The translations under genes and the position numbers were made by a program. The notes beneath the pieces are model-generated. The model had not been told where the DNA came from and did no database searches. It was given only the letters and a program-made list of their open reading frames with translations. Below, piece after piece: positions 2,313 through 18,261 of a DNA stretch of 64,000 bases. Origin of the DNA: an uncultured Clostridia bacterium. Lineage in GTDB: Bacteria > Bacillota > Clostridia > Christensenellales > Borkfalkiaceae. The stretch spans positions 1 to 64,000 of the forward strand of contig CALVXG010000009.1 of the NCBI GenBank assembly GCA_944368925.1. Direction: 5' to 3'. How positions within the stretch are numbered: position 1 is the first letter of the stretch; every line of letters starts with the position of its first letter.

Positions 2313-2396
2313 CCACATAAAGCAACAAAAATTATACAACAAACCACAAAAAATTTTCAAAAAGGTGTTGACAATTGTGGCATCGCAGGTTATAAT
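2313..2396 (+). promoter_or_regulatory. Promoter 1 of the microcompartment locus with repeated CCACAA/TTGTGG half-sites
   Basis: Consensus TTGACA (2368-2373), 17 bp, and TATAAT (2391-2396). CCACAT at 2313, CCACAA at 2344 and the inverted TTGTGG at 2375 are each 31 bp apart start to start, about three helical turns. TTGTGG touches the -35 box, as expected for a repressor site. Promoter 2 (6637) carries TTGTGG at exactly the same place relative to its -35 box. The nearby DeoR-family gene is the likely regulator (inference). Confidence 0.75.
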
Positions 2397-2430
2397 AACT
2401 GTGAAAGAATTTAAAAAGGCGGAAAAGGTC

Positions 2431-4938
2431 ATGGCGAAATTTTATTCGGAAAAAATAGCGATGCGTGATCGTGTCGGAAGACTGAAAGAGAATCTTTACA
2501 AGAAGATGCCGGAGATAGAATCTGCGCGTGCCAGGCTGATAACGGAATCCTACAAGCAGACAGAAGGTGAGCCGATCATAACGCGGCGGGCCAAGGCGTT
2601 TTTGCATATTCTTCAGAATCTGCCCATAACGATCCGCGATGAGGAACTGATCGTCGGAAGTACGACGCTGGCTCCGCGCGGTTGTCAGACGTATCCTGAA
2701 TTTTCGTATGAGTGGCTGGAGTCGGAATTTGATACGGTAGCGACGCGTACGGCGGACCCGTTCTATATTGCCGATAATACGAAGCGCGAGATCGCGGAAG
2801 CGGACAAGTATTGGAAGGGGAAGACAACGAGCGAGCTTGCCACTTCTTATATGGCGCCGGAGACGATCCGTGCGATCGAGCACAACATTTTTACGCCCGG
2901 GAACTATTTCTATAACGGTGTCGGACACGTAACGGTGCATTATGACTGGGTATTGGCCGTCGGGTTCAGAGGAATCGCGGAAAAGGCGAAAAAAGCGCTT
3001 TTGGAAGAAAATTTTGGAGACGCCGATTATGCGCGCCGTTCGCATTTCCTGCAGGCGGTGATCATGAGCTGCGAAGCGGCGATCATTTATGCAAAGAGGT
3101 ATGCGGCTCTTGCGCGCGACATGGCTCTCAAGACGAGCGACGAGAAGCGCAAAGAGGAACTTTTGATGATCGCGCGCAACTGCGAGAACGTTCCGGAGAA
3201 CGGGGCGCGGAACTTCTGGGAAGCGTGCCAGTCTTTCTGGTTTGTGCAGCAGCTTTTGCAGATCGAGTCGAGCGGACATTCCATTTCTCCGGGAAGATTC
3301 GACCAATACATGTATCCTTATTATAAAAAAGATCTGGACGAAGGGGCGATCACGCGTGAAGATGCGCAGGAGCTGATCGACTGTATCTGGGTCAAGCTCA
3401 ACGATCTTAATAAGTGCCGTGATGCGGCGAGTGCGGAAGGATTTGCCGGATACAGCCTTTTCCAGAACCTGATCGTGGGCGGACAGAATGCCGACGGGTT
3501 GGACGTGACGAACGATCTTTCGTTCATGTGCATTACGGCGTCGCTGCATCTGCAGCTGCCGCAGCCTTCGCTGTCCATCCGTGTCTGGAACAACAGCCCG
3601 CACGAATTGCTGATGCATGCGGCCGAACTGACGCGCACGGGCGTAGGGCTGCCTGCTTATTACAACGACGAAGTGATCATTCCTTCGCTGATGAGCCGTG
3701 GGCTTACGTTGCAGGATGCGCGCGAATACAATATTATCGGCTGTGTCGAACCGCAGAAAGCGGGCAAGACGGAAGGCTGGCACGATGCGGCGTTCTTCAA
3801 TATGTGCCGCCCGCTGGAACTCGTATTTTCGGACGGTATGGACAAGGGCGAGCAGGTCGGTATCCATACGGGCGACGTGACGCAGATGAAGACGTTCGAA
3901 GAGTTCTACGACGCTTATAAAAAGCAGATGAATTACTGCATTTCGCTGCTCGTGAACGCGGACAACGCGATCGACGTCGCGCATGCGGAGCGGTGCCCGC
4001 TGCCTTTCCTTTCGGGAATGATCGAAGACTGCATCGGGCGCGGAAAGTCGGTGCAGGAAGGCGGCGCGATCTACAATTTCACGGGCCCGCAGGGCTTCGG
4101 TATTGCCAATATGGCCGATTCGCTGTACGCGATCAAGACGCTCGTGTATGACGAAAAGAAAGTCACGATGGCGGAATACAAGGAAGCGCTTCGCGAGAAT
4201 TACGGCAAAGGACTGGACTCGAAGAAAGCGGAAAAAGTTGTTGCGGAGGTCGTGAAAGAACTCAAAGCCGCAGGGAAGAACGTGACGGAAGCGGAAATCG
4301 CCGCGGCCGTATCGGCGCTTGTCGGCAGCAGCACGAAGTACGACAAACTTTTGGAAATGATCGAAAACGTTCCGAAGTTCGGCAACGATATCGAAGAGGT
4401 CGACGCGTTTGCACGCGACGTTGCGTACACCTATACGCGTCCTCTGGAAACATACAAGAATCCGCGCGGCGGGCATTTCCAGGCAGGGTTGTATCCTGTT
4501 TCTGCGAATGTTCCTTTGGGTGCGCAGACGGGCGCCACGCCGGACGGCAGGCTTGCCGGAAAACCTGTGGCGGACGGGGTTTCGCCTTCGGCGGGCAAGG
4601 ATGTGCACGGGCCGACGGCTGCGGCGAACTCGGTTGCGAGACTGGACCATTACATTGCATCGAACGGAACGCTGTTCAATCAGAAATTCCATCCTTCGGC
4701 ATTGAGCGGAAGGCAGGGACTGGAAAACTTTGTCGCGCTGATCCGTTCGTACTTTGATCAGAAGGGCAGTCATATGCAGTTCAATGTCGTGTCGAAAGAG
4801 ACTCTTCTCGACGCGCAGAAATATCCTGAAAAATACAAGCACCTCGTGGTGCGCGTAGCCGGCTACAGTGCGTTCTTTACGACGCTTTCGAGAAGCCTGC
4901 AGGATGACATTATTCATCGTACCGAACAGGGATTTTAA
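2431..4938 (+). CDS. B12-independent propanediol dehydratase, glycyl radical enzyme of the microcompartment
   Basis: 835 residues from ATG 2431; an in-frame GTG at 2365 lies inside the promoter and is rejected. The catalytic motif GCVEP places the thiyl cysteine at 438 and the general base at Glu440, the arrangement of diol dehydratases rather than pyruvate formate-lyase. The glycyl radical loop RVAGYSAFF puts the radical at Gly811. It would convert 1,2-propanediol to propionaldehyde in the compartment lumen. An unusual insertion of roughly 45 residues (about 594-640) carries an amphipathic helix like an encapsulation peptide. First gene of promoter 1; its activase follows 6 bases later. Confidence 0.93.
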   Translation: MAKFYSEKIAMRDRVGRLKENLYKKMPEIESARARLITESYKQTEGEPIITRRAKAFLHILQNLPITIRDEELIVGSTTLAPRGCQTYPEFSYEWLESEFDTVATRTADPFYIADNTKREIAEADKYWKGKTTSELATSYMAPETIRAIEHNIFTPGNYFYNGVGHVTVHYDWVLAVGFRGIAEKAKKALLEENFGDADYARRSHFLQAVIMSCEAAIIYAKRYAALARDMALKTSDEKRKEELLMIARNCENVPENGARNFWEACQSFWFVQQLLQIESSGHSISPGRFDQYMYPYYKKDLDEGAITREDAQELIDCIWVKLNDLNKCRDAASAEGFAGYSLFQNLIVGGQNADGLDVTNDLSFMCITASLHLQLPQPSLSIRVWNNSPHELLMHAAELTRTGVGLPAYYNDEVIIPSLMSRGLTLQDAREYNIIGCVEPQKAGKTEGWHDAAFFNMCRPLELVFSDGMDKGEQVGIHTGDVTQMKTFEEFYDAYKKQMNYCISLLVNADNAIDVAHAERCPLPFLSGMIEDCIGRGKSVQEGGAIYNFTGPQGFGIANMADSLYAIKTLVYDEKKVTMAEYKEALRENYGKGLDSKKAEKVVAEVVKELKAAGKNVTEAEIAAAVSALVGSSTKYDKLLEMIENVPKFGNDIEEVDAFARDVAYTYTRPLETYKNPRGGHFQAGLYPVSANVPLGAQTGATPDGRLAGKPVADGVSPSAGKDVHGPTAAANSVARLDHYIASNGTLFNQKFHPSALSGRQGLENFVALIRSYFDQKGSHMQFNVVSKETLLDAQKYPEKYKHLVVRVAGYSAFFTTLSRSLQDDIIHRTEQGF

Positions 4939-4944
4939 AATTTT

Positions 4945-5742: not shown

Positions 5743-5746
5743 CGGT

Positions 5747-6127
5747 ATGGATCTGAATGACTTGATGAAGGACAGTGAGGGCAAACTGCGGATCGTGCAG
5801 GAACTGGTGCCCGGCAAACAGATCACGATCGCACATATCATTGCGAATCCGGACAAAATTCTGTATCAGAAACTGGGACTGGATCCCGCAGTAGATTACA
5901 GCAAGGCGGCGATCGGGATCGTGACGGTGAGTCCCGCGGAAACCGCGATCATTCTGGGCGACATTTCCATCAAATCTTCGGGAGTGGAGCTCGGCTTCGT
6001 GGACAGGTTCAGCGGCACACTGATCGTGACGGGTACGGTGTCGGAAGTGGATGCGGCGCTCGAAGCGCTGCTGGCGTACAGCCGCGACGTGCTCGGATTC
6101 GCCTGCTGCCCGATCACGAGAACGTAA
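5747..6127 (+). CDS. BMC-H shell protein, circularly permuted PduU/EutS type
   Basis: 126 residues from ATG 5747, with GGAGG at 5734-5738 overlapping the end of the activase gene. The sequence follows PduU/EutS from end to end (VPGKQITIAHIIANP, LGFVDRFSGTL, ending CPITRT). This permuted hexamer type has an N-terminal extension that forms a small beta-barrel over the pore. It sits apart from the other shell genes, in the first transcription unit with dehydratase and activase. Confidence 0.93.
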   Translation: MDLNDLMKDSEGKLRIVQELVPGKQITIAHIIANPDKILYQKLGLDPAVDYSKAAIGIVTVSPAETAIILGDISIKSSGVELGFVDRFSGTLIVTGTVSEVDAALEALLAYSRDVLGFACCPITRT

Positions 6128-6128
6128 A

Positions 6129-6632
6129 ATGCGTAAAATTGTTCTGATGGGTCGGACGGGCGCCGGGAAGACGACGCTGACCCAGGCTCTCAAAGGAGAA
6201 CACATCGTCTATAAAAAGACGCAGTATGTGAATTTTGAAGGAGCACTCATCGATACGCCCGGCGAATACGCCGAGACGAAGAGGCTCGGATATGCGCTGG
6301 CGCTGTACTCATACGAGGCAGACGTGGTAGGGCTTCTGTGTTCCTCGACGGAACCGTTTTCCTTATTCCCTCCGTGCGTGACTTGCATGGTAAATCGGGA
6401 AGTGGTCGGGATCGTCACCAAAACGGACGACCCGCACGGGAATCCCGAACGCGCCGCAGGCTGGCTCAGACTGGCCGGGTGCAAAAAAATATTTTTCGTA
6501 TCTTCCTATTCGGGCGAGGGTATCGCGGAAATCTTTGAATACCTCAAAGAGCCGGGCGACGTCTTGCCCTGGGAAGTGAAGTCAAACAAAAAACAACAAA
6601 AACTCACAAAAACTCAAAAAATTATAAAATAA
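6129..6632 (+). CDS. EutP/PduV-like small GTPase
   Basis: 167 residues from ATG 6129, one base after the PduU stop. P-loop GRTGAGKTT (residues 8-16), DTPGEY switch and TKTD base-recognition motif are all present. EutP/PduV proteins accompany microcompartments; PduV has been linked to compartment dynamics. The lysine-rich C-terminal tail (SNKKQQKLTKTQ) is encoded by the A-rich DNA that also serves as upstream region of promoter 2. Confidence 0.87.
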   Translation: MRKIVLMGRTGAGKTTLTQALKGEHIVYKKTQYVNFEGALIDTPGEYAETKRLGYALALYSYEADVVGLLCSSTEPFSLFPPCVTCMVNREVVGIVTKTDDPHGNPERAAGWLRLAGCKKIFFVSSYSGEGIAEIFEYLKEPGDVLPWEVKSNKKQQKLTKTQKIIK

Positions 6633-6665
6633 AATGTTGACTTTTGTGGGGTTGTGTTGTATAAT
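6604..6665 (+). promoter_or_regulatory. Promoter 2 of the microcompartment locus
   Basis: TTGACT (6637-6642), 17 bp, and TATAAT (6660-6665), starting five bases after the EutP stop. TTGTGG at 6644-6649 sits at the same distance from the -35 box as in promoter 1. An upstream TCACAA lies at 6604-6609 in similar A-rich context. It gives the aldolase-to-PduT block its own regulated transcript. Confidence 0.75.
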
Positions 6666-6712
6666 GTAATCGTAAATTAAAAAAATCAAAAAACCATACA
6701 GGAGATTTGAAG

Positions 6713-7516
6713 ATGGTAAACGAGTACGAGATCAAGAAAGAGATTTGCGACATCGGCAAACGTATTTACAACCGCGGAATGGTCGCTTCGAACGACGGCA
6801 ATATTTCCGTCAAACTGAACGATCACGAATTTCTCTGCACGCCTACGGGAGTGAGCAAGGGGTTCATGACGCCTGAATTCATCTGCAAAGTGAACGAGAA
6901 CGGTGAAGTTTTGCAGGCGAACAAGGGATTCAAACCTTCTTCGGAAATCAAGATGCACATGCGCGTCTATAAAGAGCGCCCGGACGTGAATTCGGTTGTA
7001 CACGCGCACCCGATGTATGCTACGTCGTTTGCGATCGCGGGGATTCCTCTGACGCAGCCGATCATGCCGGAAGCGGTCATTGCTCTCGGATGCGTACCGA
7101 TTGCGGAATACGGCACGCCTTCCACGGAAGAAATTCCGGACGCTGTTTCCAAGTATCTGCAGTATTTTGATGCGGTTCTGCTTGCGAACCACGGCGCTTT
7201 GGCGTATTCGGACACGCTTCTGAACGCGTACCACAAGATGGAATCCGTTGAATTCTATGCACAGCTTCTGTTCCTGTCCAAGCAGCTCGGCGGGCCGAAG
7301 GAACTTTCCAAAGAGCAGGTGGAGCGTCTGTATGAGATCCGCCGTAAGTTCGGAATGAAGGGCAAACATCCTGCAAACGTCTGCCTGAACGCGAAAGAGG
7401 GCAAACCCAGCTGCCATTCTTGCGGCGGCTGTGCTTCCAAGTCTGAAAGCGCATCTTCCGACTCCGATCTCGTAGCGGCGATCACGAAGAAAGTGATGCA
7501 GGAGCTCGGAATCTGA
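6713..7516 (+). CDS. L-fuculose-1-phosphate aldolase (class II) with C-terminal encapsulation peptide
   Basis: 267 residues from ATG 6713 (GGAG eight bases upstream; a TTG two codons earlier is less likely). The aldolase part has the catalytic Glu78 and zinc ligands His97, His99 and His160 (HAHP, NHGA). It would split L-fuculose-1-P (or L-rhamnulose-1-P) into DHAP and L-lactaldehyde. After the normal family end, a cysteine-rich linker (CHSCGGC) leads to DLVAAITKKVMQELGI, a typical amphipathic encapsulation helix, so the enzyme is expected in the compartment. This aldolase marks fucose/rhamnose GRM5-type loci. Confidence 0.93.
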   Translation: MVNEYEIKKEICDIGKRIYNRGMVASNDGNISVKLNDHEFLCTPTGVSKGFMTPEFICKVNENGEVLQANKGFKPSSEIKMHMRVYKERPDVNSVVHAHPMYATSFAIAGIPLTQPIMPEAVIALGCVPIAEYGTPSTEEIPDAVSKYLQYFDAVLLANHGALAYSDTLLNAYHKMESVEFYAQLLFLSKQLGGPKELSKEQVERLYEIRRKFGMKGKHPANVCLNAKEGKPSCHSCGGCASKSESASSDSDLVAAITKKVMQELGI

Positions 7517-7519
7517 AAA

Positions 7520-8011
7520 ATGGACGAGAAGCAGATATCCGTTCTTGTCGAAAAGATAGTCCGCGGCGCGAAAGGCGGAGAGGGATGCTGTAAAAAGCAT
7601 GCGATGACCCTGGAAAAGGCGCGCGCTCTTACGAAAATGGTGGAAGCGCGGGCCCGCGAAATGGGGGTGAACGCCGTGATCGCCGTTTCCGATGCGGGAG
7701 GAAATCCCGTCAGCGTCCAGTCGATGGACGGGGCCTATCTTGCGAGCTGGGACGTTGCACTGCAAAAGTCTTATACGGTCGTGGCGTTGAAAATGTCTAC
7801 GGCAAAACTTGCCGAGCTTGCGGCTCCCGGCGGGTCGCTGTACGGAATCCAGTTTACGAACCAGGGGAAGATCGTGATCTTCGGCGGCGGAGAACCGCTG
7901 GAGACGGACGGTAAGATCGTGGGCGGACTGGGCGTGAGCGGCGGAACCGCGGAGCAGGATACAGCGCTTGCGGCGTACGGCAGGCAGGTGTTTAAGGAGG
8001 TCGAATGTTGA
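7520..8011 (+). CDS. GlcG/HbpS-family protein (PduO C-terminal-like) with N-terminal targeting helix
   Basis: 163 residues. The first ~18 (EKQISVLVEKIVRGAKG) form an encapsulation-type helix; the rest is a GlcG/HbpS domain (MVEARAREMGVNAVIAVSD, GGGEPLETDGKIVGG, GVSGGTAEQD). Relatives bind haem or corrinoid-like cofactors, but the role in this compartment is not established. There is no PduO adenosyltransferase domain, which fits a B12-independent pathway. It overlaps the next start by seven bases. Confidence 0.85.
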   Translation: MDEKQISVLVEKIVRGAKGGEGCCKKHAMTLEKARALTKMVEARAREMGVNAVIAVSDAGGNPVSVQSMDGAYLASWDVALQKSYTVVALKMSTAKLAELAAPGGSLYGIQFTNQGKIVIFGGGEPLETDGKIVGGLGVSGGTAEQDTALAAYGRQVFKEVEC

Positions 8012-9390
8012 ACGAACAGTCCGTGCAGGACATTGTGAAAGAAGTAATAGCGAAGATGAGCCTCGGCGAGCAGACGCAGACGGGCATGGGTATTTTTACG
8101 GACATGAACGAAGCGATTGCGGCTGCAAAGAAAGCGCAGGCAGTGCTTCGCAGGATGTCGATGGATCAGCGTGAGAAGATCATTACGAAGATCCGTCAGA
8201 AGATAAACGAAAATGCGGAAACGCTTGCCCGTATGGCTGTGGACGAAACAGGAATGGGCAATGTCGGGCATAAAATCCTGAAAAACCGTTTGGTTGCAGA
8301 AAAGACGCCGGGCACGGAAGATATTACGACGGTTGCGTGGTCGGGAGACCGCGGGCTTACGCTCATCGAAATGGGCCCGTTCGGTGTGATCGGCGCGATC
8401 ACGCCCTGCACGAATCCGAGCGAAACAGTCCTTTGCAACAGCATCGGAATGATCGCGGGCGGCAACACGGTCGTGTTCAACGCGCACCCCGCGGCAATCA
8501 AGACGAGCAATTACGCTGTCCGTCTGGTAAACGAAGCGTGTGTGGAAGCGGGCGGCCCGGAAAATGTGGCTTGTTCGCTTGTCAAACCGACATTGCAGTC
8601 GAGCGAGATCATGATGAAGCATAAGGATATTCCGCTGATCGTAGCGACGGGCGGGCCCGGCGTGGTTACGGCGGTGCTTTCTTCGGGGAAACGCGGTATC
8701 GGCGCAGGCGCGGGCAACCCTCCCGTGGTTGTGGACGAAACGGCGGATATCCGCAAAGCAGCGCAGGACATCGTCAACGGCTGCACCTTCGACAACAATC
8801 TTCCCTGCATCGCAGAGAAGGAGATCGTCGCGGTGGACAGCATTGCGGACGAGCTGATGAATTACATGATCACGGAGCAGGGATGCTACCTGGCCAGCAA
8901 GGAAGTGCAGGATAAACTGGTAGCTACGGTGTTGACGCCGAAGGGACTGAACCGCAAATGCGTGGGCAGGAGCGCAAAAGTTCTGCTCGGTATGGTCGGC
9001 GTAGAGGTTTCGGACGATATCCGTTGCATCGTGTTCGAAGGCGAAAAAGAACATCCTCTGATTGCAACAGAGCTGATGATGCCGATTTTGGGAATGGTTC
9101 GTGCAAAAGATTTCGACGACGCGGTGGAGAAAGCAGTCTGGCTGGAACACGGCAACCGTCATTCGGCGCACATTCATTCCAAGAACGTCGACAATATTAC
9201 GAAATATGCAAAGGCGATCGATACGGCGATTCTGGTCAAAAACGGGCCGTCTTATGCGGCGATCGGGTTTGGCGGAGAGGGCTTCTGCACGTTTACAATT
9301 GCGAGCAGGACGGGCGAAGGTCTGACGTCTGCGGCAACGTTCACGAAGCGCCGCCGCTGTGTCATGAGCGACAGCCTGTGTATCCGCTGA
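8005..9390 (+). CDS. pduP: CoA-acylating propionaldehyde dehydrogenase, PduP type
   Basis: 461 residues from ATG 8005, with GGAGG just upstream in the end of the GlcG-like gene. The N-terminal helix NEQSVQDIVKEVIAKM is a luminal targeting peptide. The acylating aldehyde dehydrogenase fold follows, with catalytic Cys268 in NLPCIAEKE and a nucleotide-binding region (TGGPGVVTAVLSSGK). It would turn propionaldehyde, CoA and NAD+ into propionyl-CoA and NADH inside the shell. Product is used by PduL; NADH is recycled by the alcohol dehydrogenase. Confidence 0.93.
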   Translation: MLNEQSVQDIVKEVIAKMSLGEQTQTGMGIFTDMNEAIAAAKKAQAVLRRMSMDQREKIITKIRQKINENAETLARMAVDETGMGNVGHKILKNRLVAEKTPGTEDITTVAWSGDRGLTLIEMGPFGVIGAITPCTNPSETVLCNSIGMIAGGNTVVFNAHPAAIKTSNYAVRLVNEACVEAGGPENVACSLVKPTLQSSEIMMKHKDIPLIVATGGPGVVTAVLSSGKRGIGAGAGNPPVVVDETADIRKAAQDIVNGCTFDNNLPCIAEKEIVAVDSIADELMNYMITEQGCYLASKEVQDKLVATVLTPKGLNRKCVGRSAKVLLGMVGVEVSDDIRCIVFEGEKEHPLIATELMMPILGMVRAKDFDDAVEKAVWLEHGNRHSAHIHSKNVDNITKYAKAIDTAILVKNGPSYAAIGFGGEGFCTFTIASRTGEGLTSAATFTKRRRCVMSDSLCIR

Positions 9391-9407
9391 TGTAAGGAGA
9401 TAGAGAA

Positions 9408-10637
9408 ATGGATATCAACAATAAAAATATTGAAGAAATCGTCAGAAAGGTTCTCGAAGACATGACGGGCGGCGTCAAGAGCACGGCTTCGGCTGCTCCG
9501 GCCGCTGCGGCTTCGAGTGTAGCGAGCGGAACGATCCCGCAGAAAGCGCGCGTTGCGATGCTGGTTGAGAAAGAGAAATACGAGATCAGGGAATATCCTC
9601 TTCCTCCCGTCGGTGACGACGACATCCTCGTGAAGGTAGAAGGATGCGGCATCTGCGGTACGGATGCGCACGAATTCAAACGCGATCCTTTCAACCTGAT
9701 CCCTGTCGTGCTCGGACATGAAGGGACGGGCGAGATCGTCAAAATGGGTAAAAACGTCAAAAAAGACAGCGCCGGCAAAGATCTGAAACTGGGCGACAAA
9801 GTCGTTACGTGCATGATCTTCAAAGACAATCCCGACATCACGATGTTCGATCTGAACAAACAGAACGTGGGCGGCGCGGACGTGTACGGACTTCTTCCCG
9901 ATGACAACATTCACTTTAACGGCTGGTTCTCGGACTATCTGTTGGTGCGCGGCGGAAGCACGATCTTCAACGTAAGCGATCTGGATCTGTATTCGCGTAT
10001 CCTGATCGAACCCTGCGCGGTGCTCGTACATGCGGTAGAGCGTGCCAAGTCGACGGGGATCCTGCGTTTCAACAGCCGTGTCGTCGTGCAAGGCTGCGGC
10101 CCGATCGGACTCATCTGCATCGCGGTTCTGCGTACAATGGGTGTCGAGCATATTACGGCGGTGGACGGCGAAACGAAGCGTCTCGAGTTTGCGAAAAAGA
10201 TGGGCGCAGACAAGTCGGTCAACTTCAAAGAGTACAAAGGAATCGAGAACCTCGCGAAAGCGGTGGAAGATACCTTTGACGGGCATCCGGCTGACTTCGC
10301 GTTCCAGTGCACGGGGTCGCCTGCGGCGCATTCGAATATCTACAAATTCGTACGCAACGGCGGCGGTTTGTGCGAACTCGGATTCTTCATCAACGGCGGC
10401 GACGCGACGATCAACCCGCACTTCGACATCTGCGCGAAAGAGCTCACGATGGTCGGATCCTGGGTTTACACGCTCCGCGATTATGCGACGACGTTTGATT
10501 TCCTCAAACGTGCGAAAGGGATCGGCTTGCCGATGGATGAGCTGATCACGCATACTTTCCCGCTTGAGCAGATCAACGAAGCGCATCAGACGAACCTTCG
10601 CATGGAAGGATTGAAGATCGCGATCATCAATAAATAA
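9408..10637 (+). CDS. Zinc-type MDR alcohol dehydrogenase with N-terminal encapsulation peptide
   Basis: 409 residues. Layout: targeting helix (NNKNIEEIVRKVLEDM), Ala/Ser-rich linker (about 25-45), then a medium-chain dehydrogenase with catalytic zinc motif CGICGTD, GHEGTGE and a Rossmann segment GCGPIGL. The four cysteines of the structural zinc site are absent. It probably reduces propionaldehyde to propanol or lactaldehyde to propanediol with NADH in the lumen; sequence alone does not decide which. Confidence 0.88.
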   Translation: MDINNKNIEEIVRKVLEDMTGGVKSTASAAPAAAASSVASGTIPQKARVAMLVEKEKYEIREYPLPPVGDDDILVKVEGCGICGTDAHEFKRDPFNLIPVVLGHEGTGEIVKMGKNVKKDSAGKDLKLGDKVVTCMIFKDNPDITMFDLNKQNVGGADVYGLLPDDNIHFNGWFSDYLLVRGGSTIFNVSDLDLYSRILIEPCAVLVHAVERAKSTGILRFNSRVVVQGCGPIGLICIAVLRTMGVEHITAVDGETKRLEFAKKMGADKSVNFKEYKGIENLAKAVEDTFDGHPADFAFQCTGSPAAHSNIYKFVRNGGGLCELGFFINGGDATINPHFDICAKELTMVGSWVYTLRDYATTFDFLKRAKGIGLPMDELITHTFPLEQINEAHQTNLRMEGLKIAIINK

Positions 10638-10648
10638 GCAGGTAGATT

Positions 10649-10963
10649 ATGGCACAGGCAGTCGGTATTTTGGAAGTGTTTGGATTGGCAACGGCGTTCG
10701 TGGCTGCGGATGCGGGCTGTAAAGCGGCAGACGTGACGATAGAGCATTTCGACAAAAACAAACCTGGCAACGCGGATAAACTTCCGGTGCCGTTGATTGT
10801 CTGCATCAAATTCCGCGGCGATGTTGCGGCGGTGGAAGCGGCAATGGAAGCGGCGGCAAGCGCGGCGGAAGGTATTTCCGGCGTGGTCGATAAATTCATC
10901 ATAGCGAACCCGGAAGAGGGTACGGAAAAGATGCTTAAGCTGAACGCTTTTGATAAAAATTAA
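10649..10963 (+). CDS. BMC-H shell protein with an extended pore-side loop
   Basis: 104 residues with one BMC domain ([35 protein letters not shown], ending [11 protein letters not shown]). The segment between strand two and the Arg-Gly-Asp turn is longer than in PduA-like proteins ([16 protein letters not shown]), so the hexamer pore differs. First of four BMC-H genes in a row. Confidence 0.88.
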
Positions 10964-10991
10964 TTCGGATAAATTTCAGGAGGATAGAAAC

Positions 10992-11267
10992 ATGGCAAAG
11001 GAAGCATTGGGCATGATCGAGACGAGAGGCCTTGTGGCAGCGATCGAGGCAGCAGATGCAATGGTCAAAGCGGCGGAAGTTACTTTGATCGGAACGGAGA
11101 AGATCGGCAGCGGCTTGGTCAGCGTGATGGTGCGCGGCGACGTCGGCGCGGTGAACGCGGCGGTGGAAGCAGGCGCTAACAACGCGTCCAGACTGGGCGA
11201 ACTGGTTGCGAAACACGTAATTCCCCGTCCTCATGCAGACGTGGAAAAAATTCTTCCCAAACTGTAA
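10992..11267 (+). CDS. Major BMC-H shell protein, PduA-like (copy 1)
   Basis: 91 residues from ATG 10992 with AGGAGG upstream. Canonical hexameric shell protein with the KIGSG pore loop and [15 protein letters not shown]. It differs from the gene at 11692 at only about seven positions, pointing to recent duplication or gene conversion. Expected to tile the facets of the shell. Confidence 0.95.
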
Positions 11268-11291
11268 TAGAGTGGCAGGCCGGAGGCAACA

Positions 11292-11615
11292 ATGGGCAAA
11301 GCACTTGGTTTTATTGAAATATCCGGCGTGACCGCGGCGATCGACGCGCTCGACATCATGTTAAAGACGGCAGATGTCGAACTTGTGACTTGGGAAAGGA
11401 AGCTGGGCGGCAGGCTTGTCACTCTGATCGTAAGAGGCAGCGTGTCGGCGGTAACGGAAGCGGTGGAAGCGGCGGCTGCGGGTGCGATCAAGAAGCCTGT
11501 GGCGAAAGCGGTCATAGCGAATCCGCATTCCGAGACGGAGCGTCTGGTTGCGCTTTCCGCATCCAGACTGGCGAGAAAGAACGGAAAAGATGTTCCGATG
11601 GAACACGATACCTGA
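11292..11615 (+). CDS. BMC-H shell protein with short C-terminal extension
   Basis: 107 residues. One BMC domain (KALGFIEISGVTAAIDALD, VRGSVSAVTEAVEAA) with pore residues KLGGR instead of KIGSG. A basic/polar tail (ARKNGKDVPMEHDT) extends past the usual end. It sits between the two near-identical PduA-like genes. Confidence 0.9.
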   Translation: MGKALGFIEISGVTAAIDALDIMLKTADVELVTWERKLGGRLVTLIVRGSVSAVTEAVEAAAAGAIKKPVAKAVIANPHSETERLVALSASRLARKNGKDVPMEHDT

Positions 11616-11691
11616 TCCAATTTAAGCGAGCGTACGGGAAAACCGTAAGCAAATAAAATCAGTAAAATATCTCTGAAGGAGGAGAAAAGAA

Positions 11692-11973
11692 ATGTCATTC
11701 GAAGCATTGGGTATGATCGAAACGAGAGGTCTTGTTGCGGCGATCGAAGCAGCAGATGCTATGCTGAAAGCAGCGAACGTTACGTTGATCGGAACGGAAA
11801 AGATCGGCAGCGGCTTGGTCAGCGTGATGGTCAGAGGTGATGTCGGCGCGGTGAACGCAGCGGTGGAAGCAGGCGCTAACAATGCGTCCAAGCTCGGCGA
11901 ACTGGTTGCGAAACACGTGATCCCTCGTCCTCATTCTGACGTCGAGAAGATTCTTCCTACGCTCAACAAGTAA
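11692..11973 (+). CDS. Major BMC-H shell protein, PduA-like (copy 2)
   Basis: 93 residues, preceded by the strong ribosome site GGAGGAG. Nearly the same protein as at 10992, with the same KIGSG pore and changes only at scattered surface positions. A stable intercistronic hairpin lies about 30 bases downstream, which may protect or separate this abundant message from pduL. Confidence 0.95.
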
Positions 11974-12003
11974 TTGCGTAGTGAGAAATCGGGCAGCTTG
12001 AAT

Positions 12004-12037
12004 CCGCGTTCCGGAACATTTTATTTCCGGGGCGCGG
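12004..12037 (+). promoter_or_regulatory. Intercistronic RNA hairpin between shell gene and pduL
   Basis: CCGCG-TT-CCGGAA pairs with TTCCGG-GG-CGCGG (13 pairs counting two G-U), loop of eight bases. No T-run follows, so termination is unlikely; mRNA stabilisation or processing is more plausible. Confidence 0.5.
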
Positions 12038-12117
12038 CGGAAAGCGCAATATGCCGTGTCGGATGGCGCGGCAGGTTTTGTATTTAATTTTTCGGACAAT
12101 TCAGGAGGATGGCGGCA

Positions 12118-12759
12118 GTGGAACAGAGTACCATTGAAATGATTACGAGGCTTACGTTGCAGGCGTTGGAACAGCAACAGAATTCCGGAAGCGGATTTAT
12201 GGTACCGGTAGGAGTTTCGGCGCGTCACGTACATCTTACGCAGGAGCACGTAGAAGAGCTGTTCGGCAAAGGGCACGTATTGCACAAGAAAAAAGATCTT
12301 ATGGGCGGACAGTTTGCGGCGGAAGAGTGCGTAACGATTGTCGGATTGAAACTTCGTGCGATCGAAAATGTACGTGTGCTTGGGCCCTGCCGTAAAAATT
12401 CGCAGGTTGAAATTTCTGCGACGGATGCATTGAAGCTGGGTGTGAAGGCGCCTATCCGTGAATCGGGCAATATTGCCGGGAGCGCGCCGATCGCATTGGT
12501 CGGGCCGAAAGGGGCAATTTACCTGAAAGAGGGTTGCATTATTGCAAAGAGGCACATACACATGTCACCGGCGGATGCAGAGGCGGCAGGAGTGAAAGAC
12601 GGCGATGTTGTGTCTGTAAAAGCGGACAATGAGCGTGGTACGGTATTCAACCATGTTCAGATTCGTGTAGACAAGAGCTTTACGTTGGAAATGCATCTGG
12701 ATACAGATGAAGCCAATGCGGCAAAGATTTCGACGGGTTCTACCGTACGGATTCTGTAA
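12118..12759 (+). CDS. pduL: Phosphate propanoyltransferase PduL with N-terminal encapsulation peptide
   Basis: 213 residues if started at GTG 12118. An in-frame ATG at 12109 directly abuts AGGAGG (12103-12108), too close for initiation, whereas GTG has the ideal nine-base spacing. The targeting helix EQSTIEMITRLTLQALEQ is followed by two PduL half-domains with zinc motifs RHVHL and RHIHM. It converts propionyl-CoA and phosphate to propionyl-phosphate and CoA, recycling CoA in the lumen. No propionate kinase is in this window. Confidence 0.92.
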   Translation: MEQSTIEMITRLTLQALEQQQNSGSGFMVPVGVSARHVHLTQEHVEELFGKGHVLHKKKDLMGGQFAAEECVTIVGLKLRAIENVRVLGPCRKNSQVEISATDALKLGVKAPIRESGNIAGSAPIALVGPKGAIYLKEGCIIAKRHIHMSPADAEAAGVKDGDVVSVKADNERGTVFNHVQIRVDKSFTLEMHLDTDEANAAKISTGSTVRIL

Positions 12760-12777
12760 AGCCGGGGGAGTTCAGGA

Positions 12778-13041
12778 ATGATCATCGGAAAGGTTGTGGG
12801 CAGTGTCGTGTCCACGCGCAAGTGTGAAAATCTTGTCGGAAGCAAATTCATGATCGTGGAACCGATCCCGAGTTTAAAAGTGACGAACCGGATCGTGGCG
12901 ATCGATCAGATCGGTGCCGGTATCGGTGAGTTTGTCCTGGTAGCGCAGGGAAGTGCTGCACGTGTCGGCTGCGGCATGGACAGGGCTCCGGTAGATGCAG
13001 CAATCGTAGGTATTTTGGACGAAGGACAGAATTTGGAGTAA
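12778..13041 (+). CDS. EutN/CcmL-family pentameric vertex protein (BMC-P)
   Basis: 87 residues; the whole length fits the family (GKVVGSVVSTRK, LVAQGSAAR, DAAIVGILD). Pentamers cap the icosahedral vertices of the shell. It is the only BMC-P gene in the locus. Confidence 0.94.
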   Translation: MIIGKVVGSVVSTRKCENLVGSKFMIVEPIPSLKVTNRIVAIDQIGAGIGEFVLVAQGSAARVGCGMDRAPVDAAIVGILDEGQNLE

Positions 13042-13050
13042 TAGCAGACC

Positions 13051-14382
13051 ATGGAAATGAAAGAACTGGCCGCACTTTTGCAGAAGAGCGGCGTAGTCGG
13101 TGCGGGCGGTGCAGGCTTTCCTACATACGCAAAACTGGATGCCCGTGCGGAAACGATTATTATGAATTGCGCGGAGTGCGAGCCTTTGCTCAAACTTCAC
13201 AGGCAATTATTGGAGAAGTATGCGGATGAAATAGTTTCGGTATTCCATCTGGTCATGGAGACGGTGGGAGCCAAGGAAGCGATCATCGGCATTAAGAAGG
13301 CATACAAAGCGGCTATCAAGGCGCTGGAAGGCGTGCTTCCGAAGTATCCGGGCGTTCGGCTCGGCCTTTTGGACGAAGTCTATCCTGCGGGCGATGAAGT
13401 CGTTCTGATATATGAAGTCACGCATAAAGTTGTGCGCCCCGGCGGACTTCCGATCGAGTGCGGCGTGATCGTGTTCAACGTAGAGACGTTGTACAACCTG
13501 CATCGCGCATTGCACAAGAACGAGCCGGTCGTGGACAAACTTGTGAGCGTCGTTGCGGAAGTCAACAATCCCGTCACGGTGCGCATGCCTTTGGGTTCTA
13601 CGGTGGAAGAGGCCGTACAGCTTGCGGGCGGCGCAAAGGTAAAAGATCCGGTCTATTTTGTCGGCGGACCTATGATGGGGAACATTCTTCCCGGCACGGC
13701 TCCGATTACAAAGACGACGAACGCGATCCTCGTTTTGCCGCAGAATCACTTCCTTGTGGAGCGCAAGCGTGCGAAGACGGAGATCATGTTAAAGAGAGCG
13801 GCGGCGAGCTGCTGTCAGTGTACTATGTGTACGGATCTTTGTCCGCGTCATTTGCTCGGGCATCCGATCCAGCCGCATCTGTTCATGCGTGCGGCGACGT
13901 GCAAGGATGTACAGGATCCGAACATCTTCCTGGATACGTTTTTCTGCTGTTCGTGCGGTTTGTGCGAGTTGTATTCCTGCTTCCAGGGACTTTCGCCTCG
14001 TACGCTGATCACGACGTATAAAAACGGTCTGCGTGCAGCCGGGATCAAGGCTCCGCAGGTACAGGCGGCACCGGTTCAGCCGGAAAGAGAGCTGCGCAAG
14101 GCACCCATGAAGCGTCTTATGGCGCGGATCGATCTGACGAAATACGACGTTCCGGCTCCTTTGCAGGACGAATGTGTGAAAGTCAAGAGTGTCAAGATCC
14201 CGTTGCGCCAGCATATCGGGGCGCCGGCGGTATGTGCCGTCAAAGCCGGCGATATAGTAGAACGCGGGCAGGTAATCGCAAATCCTGCAAACGGTTTGAG
14301 CGTAGCGATTCATGCCTCTATTACGGGCAGGGTAAGAGAAGCGGACGCAAACAGCATAACGATAGACAGTACGGAGATTTGA
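13051..14382 (+). CDS. pduS: PduS-like RnfC-family flavin/iron-sulfur protein
   Basis: 443 residues. An RnfC/NuoF-like N-terminus has the glycine-rich motif GAGGAGFPTYAK (residues 17-28), then a SLBB-type region, two cysteine clusters near 250-305 (CCQCTMCTDLCPRH and CCSCGLCELYSC) for two 4Fe-4S centres, and a C-terminal barrel-sandwich domain. Likely shuttles electrons between NADH and the shell. The next gene encodes PduT, whose pore cysteine could pass electrons outward. In B12 systems PduS reduces cobalamin; here B12 is not used, so redox balancing is the better guess. Confidence 0.9.
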   Translation: MEMKELAALLQKSGVVGAGGAGFPTYAKLDARAETIIMNCAECEPLLKLHRQLLEKYADEIVSVFHLVMETVGAKEAIIGIKKAYKAAIKALEGVLPKYPGVRLGLLDEVYPAGDEVVLIYEVTHKVVRPGGLPIECGVIVFNVETLYNLHRALHKNEPVVDKLVSVVAEVNNPVTVRMPLGSTVEEAVQLAGGAKVKDPVYFVGGPMMGNILPGTAPITKTTNAILVLPQNHFLVERKRAKTEIMLKRAAASCCQCTMCTDLCPRHLLGHPIQPHLFMRAATCKDVQDPNIFLDTFFCCSCGLCELYSCFQGLSPRTLITTYKNGLRAAGIKAPQVQAAPVQPERELRKAPMKRLMARIDLTKYDVPAPLQDECVKVKSVKIPLRQHIGAPAVCAVKAGDIVERGQVIANPANGLSVAIHASITGRVREADANSITIDSTEI

Positions 14383-14383
14383 A

Positions 14384-14932
14384 ATGAGCAAAGCAATCGG
14401 AATGGCCGAATTTAAAACGGTATCTGCGGGCATTACGGCGGCAGACGCGATGGTCAAAACGGCGGATGTCGATGTGATCGAAGCGGAGACGGTATGTCCC
14501 GGCAAATATATAGTGATTATTACGGGTGAACTCAGTGCGGTGACTGCGTCCGTGGAAACGGCACGGACGTTGCACGGGTTGCATCTGATCGACAGTTTTG
14601 TCCTCGGAAATCCGGCGGATGAAATTTTCCCTGCAATATACGGTGCGACACACGTGGAGATCGTACAGTCTTTGGGTATTGTGGAGACGTACGATGCGGC
14701 GGCAATTATTGTTGCGGCGGATCAGGCAGCGAAAACGGCGGATGTATCGCTGGTTGAAATCCGTTTGGCGCGCGGCATGTGCGGAAAAAGCTATCTGTTG
14801 CTGACCGGAGAAGTCGCTGCGGTGGAAGCTGCGATAGCGCGCGCAGAAAAAGCGGTCGAGCCGCGCGGAATGTATCTTGACAGTTCCGTCATTGCCCGTC
14901 CCGATAAGAAAATCATCGATCAGATTTTGTAA
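14384..14932 (+). CDS. pduT: PduT-like tandem BMC-T trimer shell protein
   Basis: 182 residues with two BMC domains. Cys38 (EAETVC) is at the position that in PduT holds the pore 4Fe-4S cluster; a second cysteine (RGMCGK) lies in the matching loop of domain 2. It starts two bases after pduS ends, fitting a PduS-PduT electron conduit through the shell. Last gene before a hairpin terminator. Confidence 0.93.
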   Translation: MSKAIGMAEFKTVSAGITAADAMVKTADVDVIEAETVCPGKYIVIITGELSAVTASVETARTLHGLHLIDSFVLGNPADEIFPAIYGATHVEIVQSLGIVETYDAAAIIVAADQAAKTADVSLVEIRLARGMCGKSYLLLTGEVAAVEAAIARAEKAVEPRGMYLDSSVIARPDKKIIDQIL

Positions 14933-15042: not shown

Positions 15043-15819
15043 ATGCTCGCTATAGAAAGGAGAAACGCCATATTGGCTGTATTACGGGAGGACAAACACG
15101 TCGTCGTCAGCGAATTGGCGCGCGCGTTTGAAGTTTCGGAAGAGACGGTACGGCGTGATCTGGACAAACTGGAAAAAGAAGGTTTGGTCGTCAAGACATA
15201 CGGAGGCGCTGTCATCAGCGAAAACAATTCGGCAGAACTTCCGTACGTCGTGCGCAAGAAAGCGAACGTCACGGCAAAGCAAAAGATTGCCGAGCTTGCC
15301 GCGAACATTATCTCGGACGGCGATACGCTGATCCTCGATGCAAGTTCGACGGCGGTTTTCATCGCGCAGAAAATCAAGAGCAAGAAAGACCTCACGCTCA
15401 TCACGAATTCCATTGAAGTGCTCATGGAATTGTCGGACGTGACGGGTTGGAAAATTTTGTCGACGGGCGGCCTTTTGAAAGAGCGTTCGTGTGCCTTGGT
15501 CGGTAACCAGGCAGAGGAATGCCTTTCCCGCTTTCATGTCGATAAAGCGTTCATTTCCTGCAAGGGCATGCATCCGGAACACGGATTTTCGGACAGTAGC
15601 GACATGCACGCCGCCGTCAAGAGGGCGATGATCCAGAGTGCTGCGCAGGTGTTTTTTGCGGTGGATTCTTCCAAATTCGGTAAATTATCGCTGACGACGA
15701 TCAGCAATTTTGAAGGGGTGGAAGCGGTCATTACCGATCAGAAACCGAGTGCCGAGTGGGAGCGGATCTTTGCCGCCAACGACGTGGAATGTCTTTATCC
15801 GGAGGGCGAAAATGTCTGA
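15043..15819 (+). CDS. DeoR-family transcriptional regulator, probable regulator of the microcompartment
   Basis: 258 residues from ATG 15043 (GAAGGGGG upstream; the frame is open further upstream without a ribosome site). The N-terminal winged HTH is clear (RRNAILAVLREDKHVVVSE, VSEETVRRDLDKLEKEG), followed by the DeoR sugar-phosphate sensor domain (DGDTLILDASSTAVFIAQ). These repressors usually bind a phosphorylated sugar; fuculose-1-P or a related intermediate is the likely inducer (inference). Overlaps the ParA gene by eight bases. Candidate operators are the TTGTGG/CCACAA sites at both promoters. Confidence 0.9.
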   Translation: MLAIERRNAILAVLREDKHVVVSELARAFEVSEETVRRDLDKLEKEGLVVKTYGGAVISENNSAELPYVVRKKANVTAKQKIAELAANIISDGDTLILDASSTAVFIAQKIKSKKDLTLITNSIEVLMELSDVTGWKILSTGGLLKERSCALVGNQAEECLSRFHVDKAFISCKGMHPEHGFSDSSDMHAAVKRAMIQSAAQVFFAVDSSKFGKLSLTTISNFEGVEAVITDQKPSAEWERIFAANDVECLYPEGENV

Positions 15820-16597
15820 AACGAAAGTGATCTGTTTTGCGAACAATAAAGGCGGCAGCGGAAAATCTACCACCTGTTCGAACGTCGGATATTTTTTAGC
15901 CGATTCCGGGCGCAAAGTCTTATTGATCGACGGAGACATGCAGCTGAACTTGTCGCTTGCCTTTTTTGACGAAGAAAAGGTCCTTGCAATGGCGGGAAGT
16001 GAAAAAAATCTGTTCAACGCAATCAAGAAGCAGGACGATCTGACCGATTATGTGGTTTCGACGGGCTATCCGAATCTGGATATCGTTCCGTCGTCCACCT
16101 TGATGAGCTCGATCGAGTTTGAATTGTTTTCCAAGTGGCAGCGGGAGTATATTCTGAAAAAATGCCTGCAAAAGCTCAAAGAAAGCAATCGCTATGATTT
16201 TATCCTGATCGATTCACCGCCTACATTGGGAGGCTGGGTGATGAATATCCTGGCGGCCTCCGATTATTTGATCGTGCCTGTGGAAGCGAGCCCTTGGGGT
16301 CTGTTCGGACTTTCCAATTTGTTTGAATTTTTGTCCGAAGCGAAGGGGATCGCACCGCAACTGGAAGTGGCCGGGATCGCCGTAACCAAAGTAGACGGCA
16401 GAAAAAATTATTTTAAACAAACGATGGAAACGCTGCACGAATTGCCTGCTCATTTATTTGAAACGTGTATCCACACGGACAGCAACATTGAATGGGCGCA
16501 GGACAACAGCAAACCGGTCGGAAAATACCGCAGAAGTTCGCGCAGCAGCAAAGAATATCAGATGTTAACGGAGGAGATCGAAAAAGTATGCCGATAG
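15812..16597 (+). CDS. ParA/MinD-family ATPase, candidate microcompartment-positioning protein
   Basis: 261 residues from ATG 15812. Deviant Walker A NNKGGSGKSTT (residues ~11-21) with the signature lysine, Walker A' DGDMQLNLS, and Walker B ILIDSPPTLGG. Not next to chromosomal parS/rnp genes; instead it is embedded in the microcompartment locus and overlaps the DeoR regulator upstream. ParA relatives (McdA) position carboxysomes on the nucleoid, so a similar role for this shell is proposed. The next gene, with a ParB-like domain, overlaps its end. Confidence 0.85.
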   Translation: MSETKVICFANNKGGSGKSTTCSNVGYFLADSGRKVLLIDGDMQLNLSLAFFDEEKVLAMAGSEKNLFNAIKKQDDLTDYVVSTGYPNLDIVPSSTLMSSIEFELFSKWQREYILKKCLQKLKESNRYDFILIDSPPTLGGWVMNILAASDYLIVPVEASPWGLFGLSNLFEFLSEAKGIAPQLEVAGIAVTKVDGRKNYFKQTMETLHELPAHLFETCIHTDSNIEWAQDNSKPVGKYRRSSRSSKEYQMLTEEIEKVCR

Positions 16598-17058
16598 GAA
16601 GTGCAAGCATTCGCCGTGCGTCGGGTGCGATGAACAAAACGGAAAAGAAGGCGGAAAAAGCAGCGTTTGCGGTGCAGACCGCTCTCGCAGATGTATCGAT
16701 CGATAAAATTACGGGTGTGTTGCCGCAGGCGCCGGAAGCTTTGGTCAAATCGATGAAAAAGTACGGCCAGATGGTTCCCATAGCTTTGCTTTCGGACGGT
16801 GAAAAATTCCGTGTTTTGGAAGGATTCTGCAGAATAGCAGCCGCAAAGGCGTGCGGCATGACCGAAATCAAAGCGATTGTCCTTTCTTTGGAAGGAAGCG
16901 GCGTTACGGGCGCGAAAAAGGATCTTACAGCCGTTTATAAAGAGACGGTTGCCGCCTCTGAGATTGCAGTAGCGGCGGCAGAGCATGACTCTATTCACGA
17001 AGAAAAATTCAAAGCGGCACGCTCTGTCGGAAGCGATCTTCCCGATTATCTGCTGTAA
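16588..17058 (+). CDS. Small ParB N-domain-like protein, putative partner of the ParA ATPase
   Basis: 156 residues from ATG 16588 (GGAGGAG in the end of the ParA gene). N-terminal basic segment (SASIRRASG), then a helix, then a ParB/sulfiredoxin-like core at about 42-110 (ALVKSMKKYGQMVPIAL, FRVLEGFCRIAAAKACG) with the GxxR/RxxAAK pattern of ParB N-domains. No helix-turn-helix or C-terminal ParB dimer domain is present, so parS binding is unlikely. The C-terminus ends SDLPDYLL. As the co-translated partner it may stimulate ParA ATPase and link it to the shell (inference). Confidence 0.65.
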   Translation: MPIGSASIRRASGAMNKTEKKAEKAAFAVQTALADVSIDKITGVLPQAPEALVKSMKKYGQMVPIALLSDGEKFRVLEGFCRIAAAKACGMTEIKAIVLSLEGSGVTGAKKDLTAVYKETVAASEIAVAAAEHDSIHEEKFKAARSVGSDLPDYLL

Positions 17059-17118: not shown

Positions 17119-18261
17119 ATGAAAAGTTTTGATATAAAGACAAAAATATATTTTGGTGACAATGCCATAGACCGCTTGCGCGAACTTCCTTACAAGAAAA
17201 TAATGATCGTGACTGACAAATTCTTTTCGGGCAGCAGTATGTTGCGTATCGTCACGCAGCCATTGAGCGAGTCCAACAAGGAATTTCGTGTCTTTAACGA
17301 TGTCGTTCCCGATCCGCCGATTGACAAAATTGTAGTAGGCGTCAAGGCGGTATTGGAATACAAACCCGATTGTCTGATTGCGGTCGGGGGCGGTTCCGTC
17401 ATCGATTCCGCAAAGGCCATCCGCGAGTTTGCCAATCGTATGCACGAATCTAAAATCGCGTTGGTTGCAATTCCTACGACGAGCGGTACCGGTTCGGAAG
17501 TTACGTCTTTTTCCGTAATTACGGATCCGATTCACCATATCAAATATCCGCTTGTTTCGGACACTATGCTTCCGGAAGAAGCGATCCTCGACGAAGATCT
17601 GGTCAAGAGCGTCCCGCCGAATGTTACGGCCGATACGGGTATGGACGTGCTGACGCACGCGATTGAGGCGTATACGAGCATCAATAACAATGAATTTTCG
17701 GCAGCGCTTGCGGAAAAGGCGATTGAAATTTGCGGGGCATTCCTGCTTCGCGCGTATTTGGACGGAAATGACTGGCACGCGCGCAGAAAGATGCACGTTG
17801 CATCTTGCCTTGCGGGTCTCGCATTCAATTCCGCGTCGCTTGGTCTCAACCACGGTATGGCGCATCAGATCGGTGCGAATTTCCATATCGCGCACGGTCG
17901 TGCAAACGCGATGCTTTTGCCGCACATTATCGAGTTTAACAGCGGCATCAACATTCATTCACGCAGCCAGAAAGAGTACCCGAAACAGGTTGAAAAGTAC
18001 GTTTCCATCGCGCGTCTGTTGGGACTGCAAAACTTCAACACGATCACGACGGTTCGGGCCCTGGTCAACTGGATCCAGTTCATGAACAAGGAAATGAATA
18101 TTCCTTTGTCCATATCGCAGATGGGCAATATTCCCGAAATGGAATACCGCTCCAAGATCCCGCAGATGGCAGAAGCCGCGCTTGCGGATGCTTGTACGGC
18201 AACCAATCCGAAAGTTCCTACTAAAGCAGATGTAATGCGTATCTATGAGGAGCTTTGGTGA
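17119..18261 (+). CDS. Iron-dependent alcohol dehydrogenase, PduQ/FucO-like
   Basis: 380 residues, group III dehydrogenase. GGGSVIDSAK nucleotide loop, TSGTGSEVT, and metal ligands around DVLTHAIEAY and GLNHGMAHQIG. It may reduce lactaldehyde to 1,2-propanediol (FucO role) or propionaldehyde to propanol (PduQ role). It lacks an obvious encapsulation helix, in contrast to the zinc-type enzyme at 9408, so a cytosolic role such as lactaldehyde reduction is plausible. Ends with a clear terminator. Confidence 0.9.
   Translation: MKSFDIKTKIYFGDNAIDRLRELPYKKIMIVTDKFFSGSSMLRIVTQPLSESNKEFRVFNDVVPDPPIDKIVVGVKAVLEYKPDCLIAVGGGSVIDSAKAIREFANRMHESKIALVAIPTTSGTGSEVTSFSVITDPIHHIKYPLVSDTMLPEEAILDEDLVKSVPPNVTADTGMDVLTHAIEAYTSINNNEFSAALAEKAIEICGAFLLRAYLDGNDWHARRKMHVASCLAGLAFNSASLGLNHGMAHQIGANFHIAHGRANAMLLPHIIEFNSGINIHSRSQKEYPKQVEKYVSIARLLGLQNFNTITTVRALVNWIQFMNKEMNIPLSISQMGNIPEMEYRSKIPQMAEAALADACTATNPKVPTKADVMRIYEELW

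Follow-up and report, generated by a model that had tools for sequence, protein, structure and literature searches.

What does a ParA-family ATPase do among the shell proteins and enzymes of a catabolic microcompartment? The question is raised by a 64,000-nucleotide stretch of DNA from an uncultured Clostridia bacterium (the window), in which a ParA/MinD-family gene and a gene for a small ParB-like protein, here called the adaptor, lie within a glycyl radical microcompartment operon (Table 1). A sequence-only reading took the pair as a candidate for positioning a catabolic shell by means of a ParB-derived adaptor, a solution different from the McdAB system of carboxysomes and apparently undescribed. 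The analyses presented here support the candidate function and redraw its relation to McdAB.

Table 1 Features of the window discussed in the text
Feature	Position	Strand	Basis
Glycyl radical enzyme (GRE), presumed 1,2-propanediol dehydratase	2365..4938	+	PF02901 5.2e-251, PF01228 1.5e-36
Shell and core genes: four BMC-H, PduL, EutN, PduS-like, PduT-like	10649..14932	+	
DeoR-family regulator, start chosen by analyst (about 15043)	15043..15819	+	PF00455 2.2e-51, PF08220 4.3e-17
ParA/MinD-family ATPase, 261 aa, McdA-like, shell-associated subfamily	15812..16597	+	PF13614, subfamily bit-score gap, ten-member alignment
Adaptor, 156 aa: N-terminal motif, ParB/Srx-like core, C-terminal tail	16588..17058	+	Profiles, fold prediction
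Adaptor N-terminal motif MPIGSASIRRASGAM, proposed ParA-binding peptide	16588..16632	+	Family motif; role inferred from excerpts of PMC12204374 and PMC12462528
Adaptor core resembling ParB_N/sulfiredoxin (about aa 30-110), lacking the CTP-binding motifs	16675..16917	+	
Adaptor C-terminal SDLPDYLL, proposed shell-docking tail	17032..17055	+	Role inferred from excerpts of PMC11321042
Iron-containing alcohol dehydrogenase (Fe-ADH)	17119..18261	+	PF00465 8.2e-42

Gene content of the window operon

Both ORFs are present at 15812-17058, as first reported, and overlap by 10 nt. The ATPase has a deviant Walker A motif (KGGSGKST) and matches PF13614 in Pfam with E 3.2e-51. The pair lies at the end of the operon, and its proposed place between a DeoR regulator and the last pathway enzyme is borne out by Pfam matches for DeoR upstream and Fe-ADH downstream. 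Shell and GRE genes span 2365-14932, and the operon also encodes an activase, a EutS-like shell protein, PduV/EutP, a class II aldolase-like protein, an HbpS/PduO-like protein, an aldehyde dehydrogenase and a zinc-containing alcohol dehydrogenase (Zn-ADH). Matches to PF00936, PF03319, PF06130, PF10662 and PF02901 exceed the Pfam cut-offs; the PduS-like and PduT-like assignments score under their NCBIfam cut-offs, and several NCBIfam names in the operon, including the aldolase-like one, likewise rest on sub-cut-off scores. By gene content, the operon fits a GRM5-like type, the fucose/rhamnose type, as excerpts of PMC6325248 describe it: GRE, activase, class II aldolase-like protein (pfam00596 in that description), Zn-ADH and homologues of PduS and PduT are present, with the aldolase, PduS-like and PduT-like matches below cut-off. 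The same source and the same gene content make 1,2-propanediol the presumed substrate of the GRE.

The pair was rejected as a chromosomal ParAB system: the genome's own ParAB is encoded on another contig (C7), and its ParA is 34% identical to that of the window. ORFs at 29021-30539 of the window resemble the segregation and condensation proteins ScpA and ScpB, by eye only.

A ParB-like core in the adaptor

The core of the adaptor is confirmed as ParB/sulfiredoxin (Srx)-like by sequence and predicted fold. Family profiles match below their cut-offs, with 16.4 bits (E 0.0097) for Pfam PF02195 (cut-off 26.3) and 23.5 bits (E 3.9e-5) for TIGR00180 (NCBIfam cut-off 58.45). The adaptor also matches the sequence of a solved ParB structure (E 3.6e-4), ParB-length ORFs of the same order (best E 3.9e-6), a hidden Markov model (HMM) built from 26 presumed ParB ORFs (8e-11) and, in profile-profile comparison, ParB at a probability of 98.6% over 85 columns. 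The partner at locus L091 reaches only 0.0013 with the same HMM. The 26 ORFs were selected by the pattern GE[RK]R, whose occurrence in them is therefore not informative; at least L016 and L028 look wrong-frame by eye, three (L016, L024 and L028) were later excluded, and 9 of the remaining 23 were used in the profile-profile comparison and the core tree.

An AlphaFold2 model of the adaptor, built from 16 sequences, has a mean pLDDT of 69.5, with 79-85 in blocks of residues 31-100; an N-terminal helix (residues 5-15, pLDDT 54-64) and the C-terminal region are predicted at low confidence. Foldseek searches with this model place Myxococcus xanthus ParB first (1.6e-5) and PadC second (2.9e-5; 6ryk), with sulfiredoxins lower down (6.1e-4 and weaker). 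Structure prediction, proposed earlier as a check, thus yields a ParB fold, and the sequence tests and Foldseek concur on an N-domain-like core lacking the remainder of ParB. The similarity covers the ParB N-domain only and stops near residue 110 of 156; neither a helix-turn-helix (HTH) nor a C-terminal dimer domain was found, nor any other family in Pfam, NCBIfam and profile-profile searches. GERR and ENxxR are the CTP-binding motifs of ParB. These motifs and [QN]PR are absent from all 16 core-bearing partners, and a CTP switch is therefore not expected in the adaptor core; at the GERR positions the G and R are kept in place.

Conserved ends and two kinds of middle in the partner family

ParA was searched for in two overlapping genome samples, one from the order (297) and one from the class (391). 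Ten genomes besides that of the window encode a ParA at 309-391 bits and 54-71% identity, and every other ParA match listed scores at most 154 bits, leaving a sharp gap to this subfamily. A scan of named genomes gave 519 ParA relatives. Partners were analysed in 90 loci, comprising 10 from the order and class samples and the best 80 of the 519. A partner gene lies directly downstream of ParA in 74 of the 90 loci, usually overlapping it by 14 nt (41) or 10 nt (23); 73 of these partners are complete, and that of L125 is truncated where its contig stops. The ParAs of the other 16 loci, one of which runs off its contig, have no adjoining partner, and none was found in their locus sequence. Partners encoded away from ParA were sought by a pattern in 22 whole genomes; the badly specified pattern matched none of them, not even the window genome or the controls L108, L109, L111, L134 and G188.

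The 73 complete partners share the N-terminal consensus M-x-[VIL]-G-K-x-S-I-x-R and, with few exceptions, the C-terminal consensus [LMV]-P-x-[YFHW]-L-L. Partners were picked by an N-terminal pattern with M1 and G4 fixed and residue classes at positions 3, 7 and 8. Although both features lay outside this pattern, R10 is found in 73 of the 74 picks and the C-terminal end likewise in 73, the exception (L166) being a chance ORF. Lysine occupies position 5 in 62 of the 74 picks, and serine in the window adaptor. The tail pattern [LMV]Px[YFHW]L[LMW], also present in the window, is missing from all 6155 other ORFs of at least 60 aa in the same loci (6228 ORFs with the 73 partners included). The residue at -3 is Tyr in 60, His in 6, Phe in 4 and Trp in 3 of the 73 partners, Tyr or Phe therefore in 64, and in the window it is Y154 of 156. 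In 72 of 75 rows, a set that includes the chance ORF, the first 20 residues carry a net charge of +1 or more.

Between these ends, 58 of the 73 complete partners have a middle without a detectable ParB core, and 15, plus the window adaptor, hold one. The core was accordingly rejected as the defining trait of the family, of which it is an optional part; the ends are better conserved than the core. Pooled, the 58 core-less middles consist of A, K, E, T and P to 72%, with 47 aromatics in 4831 residues; taken singly, these five residues reach half of the sequence in 54 of 58. Both the conserved ends and the prevalence of relatives without a core go beyond the sequence-only reading. The N-terminal ends also resemble ParB over a short stretch, with an early [LIM]G[KR]G in 18 of the 26 ORFs taken as ParB and M.[VIL]G[KR][GAES] in 58 of 75 partner rows, a likeness that may reflect descent or convergence.

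Several further features of these loci were observed. A second motif resembling I[HQ]E.KF lies just N-terminal to the tail in 8 of the 58 partners of linker type and in 12 of the 17 other rows (L166 included). At L090:6905-7420, a EutP/PduV-like protein directly upstream of ParA ends in ...LDVWLL, resembling the adaptor tail; this type of ending is absent from the 14 other EutP tails inspected. In ten loci (L117, L135, L143, L151, L156, L162, L167, L169, L170 and L177) the place of the adaptor after ParA is taken by an AraC-like ORF of about 320 aa, identified by eye, and the ParAs of these loci form one group in the ParA tree together with those of L164 and L166. L088 (genome G012) and L089 (G040) have a ParA without an adjoining adaptor and shell genes elsewhere in the genome; the ParA of L088 lies immediately upstream of genes resembling miaB, mutS and mutL by eye. 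The ParA of the closest named relative has an early in-frame stop (L098:1877-1954), from assembly error or decay.

Association with shell genes

BMC shell genes occur in 29 of the 297 order-sample genomes, including all nine that encode a ParA of the subfamily (Fisher 2.3e-10 by genome, 3.7e-5 by genus); 20 of the 29 are without this ParA. The link spans four families and holds within two genera: the window genome has both ParA and shells and its congener G296 neither (genus g1), and G188 has both and G210 neither (genus g101). A genome-wide check of 61 named loci and two class genomes was shell-positive throughout (63/63; 50/50 and 13/13), and the remaining 19 named loci contain shell genes within the locus itself. 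The background of 29 in 297 applies to the order sample. ParA similarity was the criterion for the 80 named loci, which are skewed to Blautia and its kin, so these counts are not independent.

Shell genes lie within the locus sequence examined in 26 of 90 loci (14 of the 51 longer than 20 kb), and 64 show none. The 16 core-bearing members have shell genes close by in 11 loci and the window; in L097, L119, L121 and L165 they are not in the locus but elsewhere in the genome. The pair, whose hosts include the named gut species Blautia wexlerae and B. schinkii, stands apart from shell genes at L109, L111 and L134, all Blautia loci. It goes with shells even where these are encoded elsewhere in the genome. 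The earlier proposal to gauge the pair by its nearness to BMC genes thus has a divided outcome, since the pair lies mostly away from BMC loci but every genome checked is shell-positive. Inside BMC loci it comes after DeoR, Fe-ADH or EutP depending on lineage, and therefore moves as a unit.

The strongest competing explanation gives the pair another cargo (an element, a DNA locus or another protein complex) and attributes its association with shells to shared ancestry or habitat. It would account for the 64 loci with no shell gene in their sequence, for nine inspected loci in which the pair lies among unrelated genes and for the ParB fold of some members, but it agrees poorly with a link that spans four families and holds within two genera, with the different upstream neighbours in BMC loci of different lineages and with an adaptor that has no HTH. 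No match to the adaptor was found in plasmids or phages and none to ParA in plasmids at E 1e-50; a plasmid or phage system was rejected on these grounds, and the plasmid origin that the earlier reading had named as a counter-indication did not materialize. We regard positioning of another cargo as unlikely.

Proposed function

The pair probably positions bacterial microcompartments in the manner of McdAB, here with a ParB-cored adaptor, because a partner directly follows ParA in most loci (74/90), the partners have conserved ends and the link to shells holds at the level of the genome. The McdA-like ParA would dimerize with ATP and bind the nucleoid, and the basic N-terminal end of the adaptor (M-x-[VIL]-G-K-x-S-I-x-R) would bind the ParA dimer and trigger ATP hydrolysis. 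The tail (P-x-[YF]-L-L) would dock on shells, which could then track ParA across the nucleoid, keep apart and partition at division. The ParB/Srx core, its CTP switch presumably lost, may act as a spacer or an additional docking surface. Points against this reading are the 16 ParAs without an adjoining partner, the 64 loci that show no shell gene, the 20 shell-positive order genomes that have no ParA of the subfamily and the scores of the window ParA, which are higher for other ParAs than for McdA. The pair is compact and its two motifs are short, so these roles are addressable by single-residue changes.

A variant with a smaller probability than that of another cargo holds that the pair chiefly stops shells from clustering, through condensate control by a lysine-rich linker, and does not space them evenly. 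The linkers are indeed rich in lysine and alanine, and McdB forms condensates (excerpts of PMC11321042), but the conserved ParA points to an ATP-driven step; sequence alone cannot separate the two. Least probable is a regulatory or maintenance role for the compartment pathway, with the ParB-fold protein as a nucleotide or redox sensor or sulfiredoxin-like factor and ParA as its switch: the pair adjoins DeoR and enzymes and the adaptor model also matches sulfiredoxins, but 58 of 73 complete partners have no ParB core, GERR and ENxxR are missing from 16 of 16 cores, and the ends are conserved better than the core.

Origin of the ParB core

The ParB cores of the adaptors group together against nine ParBs (support 99/98) in a tree of 83 columns with two long branches. 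The ParAs of core-bearing pairs were rejected as one clade (p-AU 0.009), and several changes are needed on the ParA tree, in which the bootstrap had not settled, the outgroup branch is long and the root is unsure. One origin of the core followed by several losses would be the simplest reading of these trees, and partner exchange is a possible alternative. We tentatively suggest, as a possible history, that in these Firmicutes a ParB gave rise to the McdB-like adaptors by shedding its DNA-binding, dimer and CTP parts and acquiring a shell-docking tail. The core would then have been worn away several times to a disordered linker, and the window adaptor and its kin would represent an intermediate stage, with the pair serving shells encoded elsewhere. 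If so, window-type adaptors would connect chromosome partition and organelle positioning, and the ParB core, if ancestral, would reveal the origin of one class of McdB-like adaptors.

Comparison with known systems

The pair resembles McdAB of alpha- and beta-carboxysomes in its ParA-family ATPase and small downstream partner with a basic N-terminal end and a C-terminal aromatic residue. Unlike McdAB, it belongs to catabolic shells, and the window ParA has a higher score against other ParAs (100.8 bits) than against McdA in the PDB (59.6 bits). Carboxysome McdB has an invariant C-terminal Trp, whereas Trp stands at -3 in only 3 of 73 partners here, so these are not carboxysome McdB proteins. 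Some partners carry a ParB/Srx core, whereas McdB of S. elongatus has no identifiable ParB similarity according to excerpts of PMC6328274. In the available text of the respective papers, residues 1-20 of McdB are both required and enough for binding McdA (PMC12204374, preprint), and a C-terminal aromatic docks McdB on the carboxysome (PMC11321042).

McdB-like proteins of PDU and GRM shells have Tyr or Phe among their last five residues (Basalla 2024; excerpts of PMC11321042), as the window adaptor does with Y154. Compared by description only, the partner family is probably the same as these proteins or overlaps with them; the ParB core, the N-terminal consensus and pairs away from BMC loci were not found in the excerpted description. 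The view that the pair is a different solution from McdAB is not borne out in that form, as the partners show an McdB-like plan of basic N-terminal end, low-complexity middle and C-terminal aromatic. McdB-like proteins near PDU and GRM loci were reportedly described by MacCready in 2020. Passages of PMC8262871 and PMC11321042 already report McdAB-like pairs near PDU and GRM loci, and passages of PMC8262871 and PMC13052382 report McdA- and McdB-like genes in BMC operons; ParA is named among BMC ancillary genes in PMC4207490, as far as its excerpts go. What seems new, and is as much of the claim of an undescribed system as survives, is the ParB-cored adaptor and the link to distant shells: open-licence literature, consulted partly as excerpts, yielded no description of either, and nothing on Blautia together with McdA. 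The terms microcompartment, McdB, carboxysome and organelle do not occur in the main text of a 2025 survey of ParB folds (PMC12704722), as excerpted, and the Pfam gathering cut-off for PF02195, applied in one of the survey's searches, is not reached by the window adaptor. Salmonella Pdu shells are unaffected by McdAB, ParA or MinD (excerpts of PMC12866334), and a 2025 review, in its available part, expects new positioning strategies from non-carboxysome shells (PMC13052382).

The N-domains of chromosomal ParB, Noc and KorB share the ParB/Srx fold with the adaptor, and 18 of the 26 ORFs taken as ParB resemble the partners in their N-terminal [LIM]G[KR]G, but the HTH, dimer domain, GERR and ENxxR of these proteins are all absent from the adaptor. 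In chromosomal ParBs, an N-terminal motif that combines aliphatic with basic residues binds ParA (excerpts of PMC12462528). PadC of M. xanthus, in the accessible text of PMC5703909, combines a ParB-like domain with a long disordered region and binds ParA and a protein scaffold; its scaffold, however, is bactofilin, its task chromosome segregation and its disordered part N-terminal. On that description, PadC offers an earlier example of a ParB-like adaptor joining ParA to a protein scaffold.
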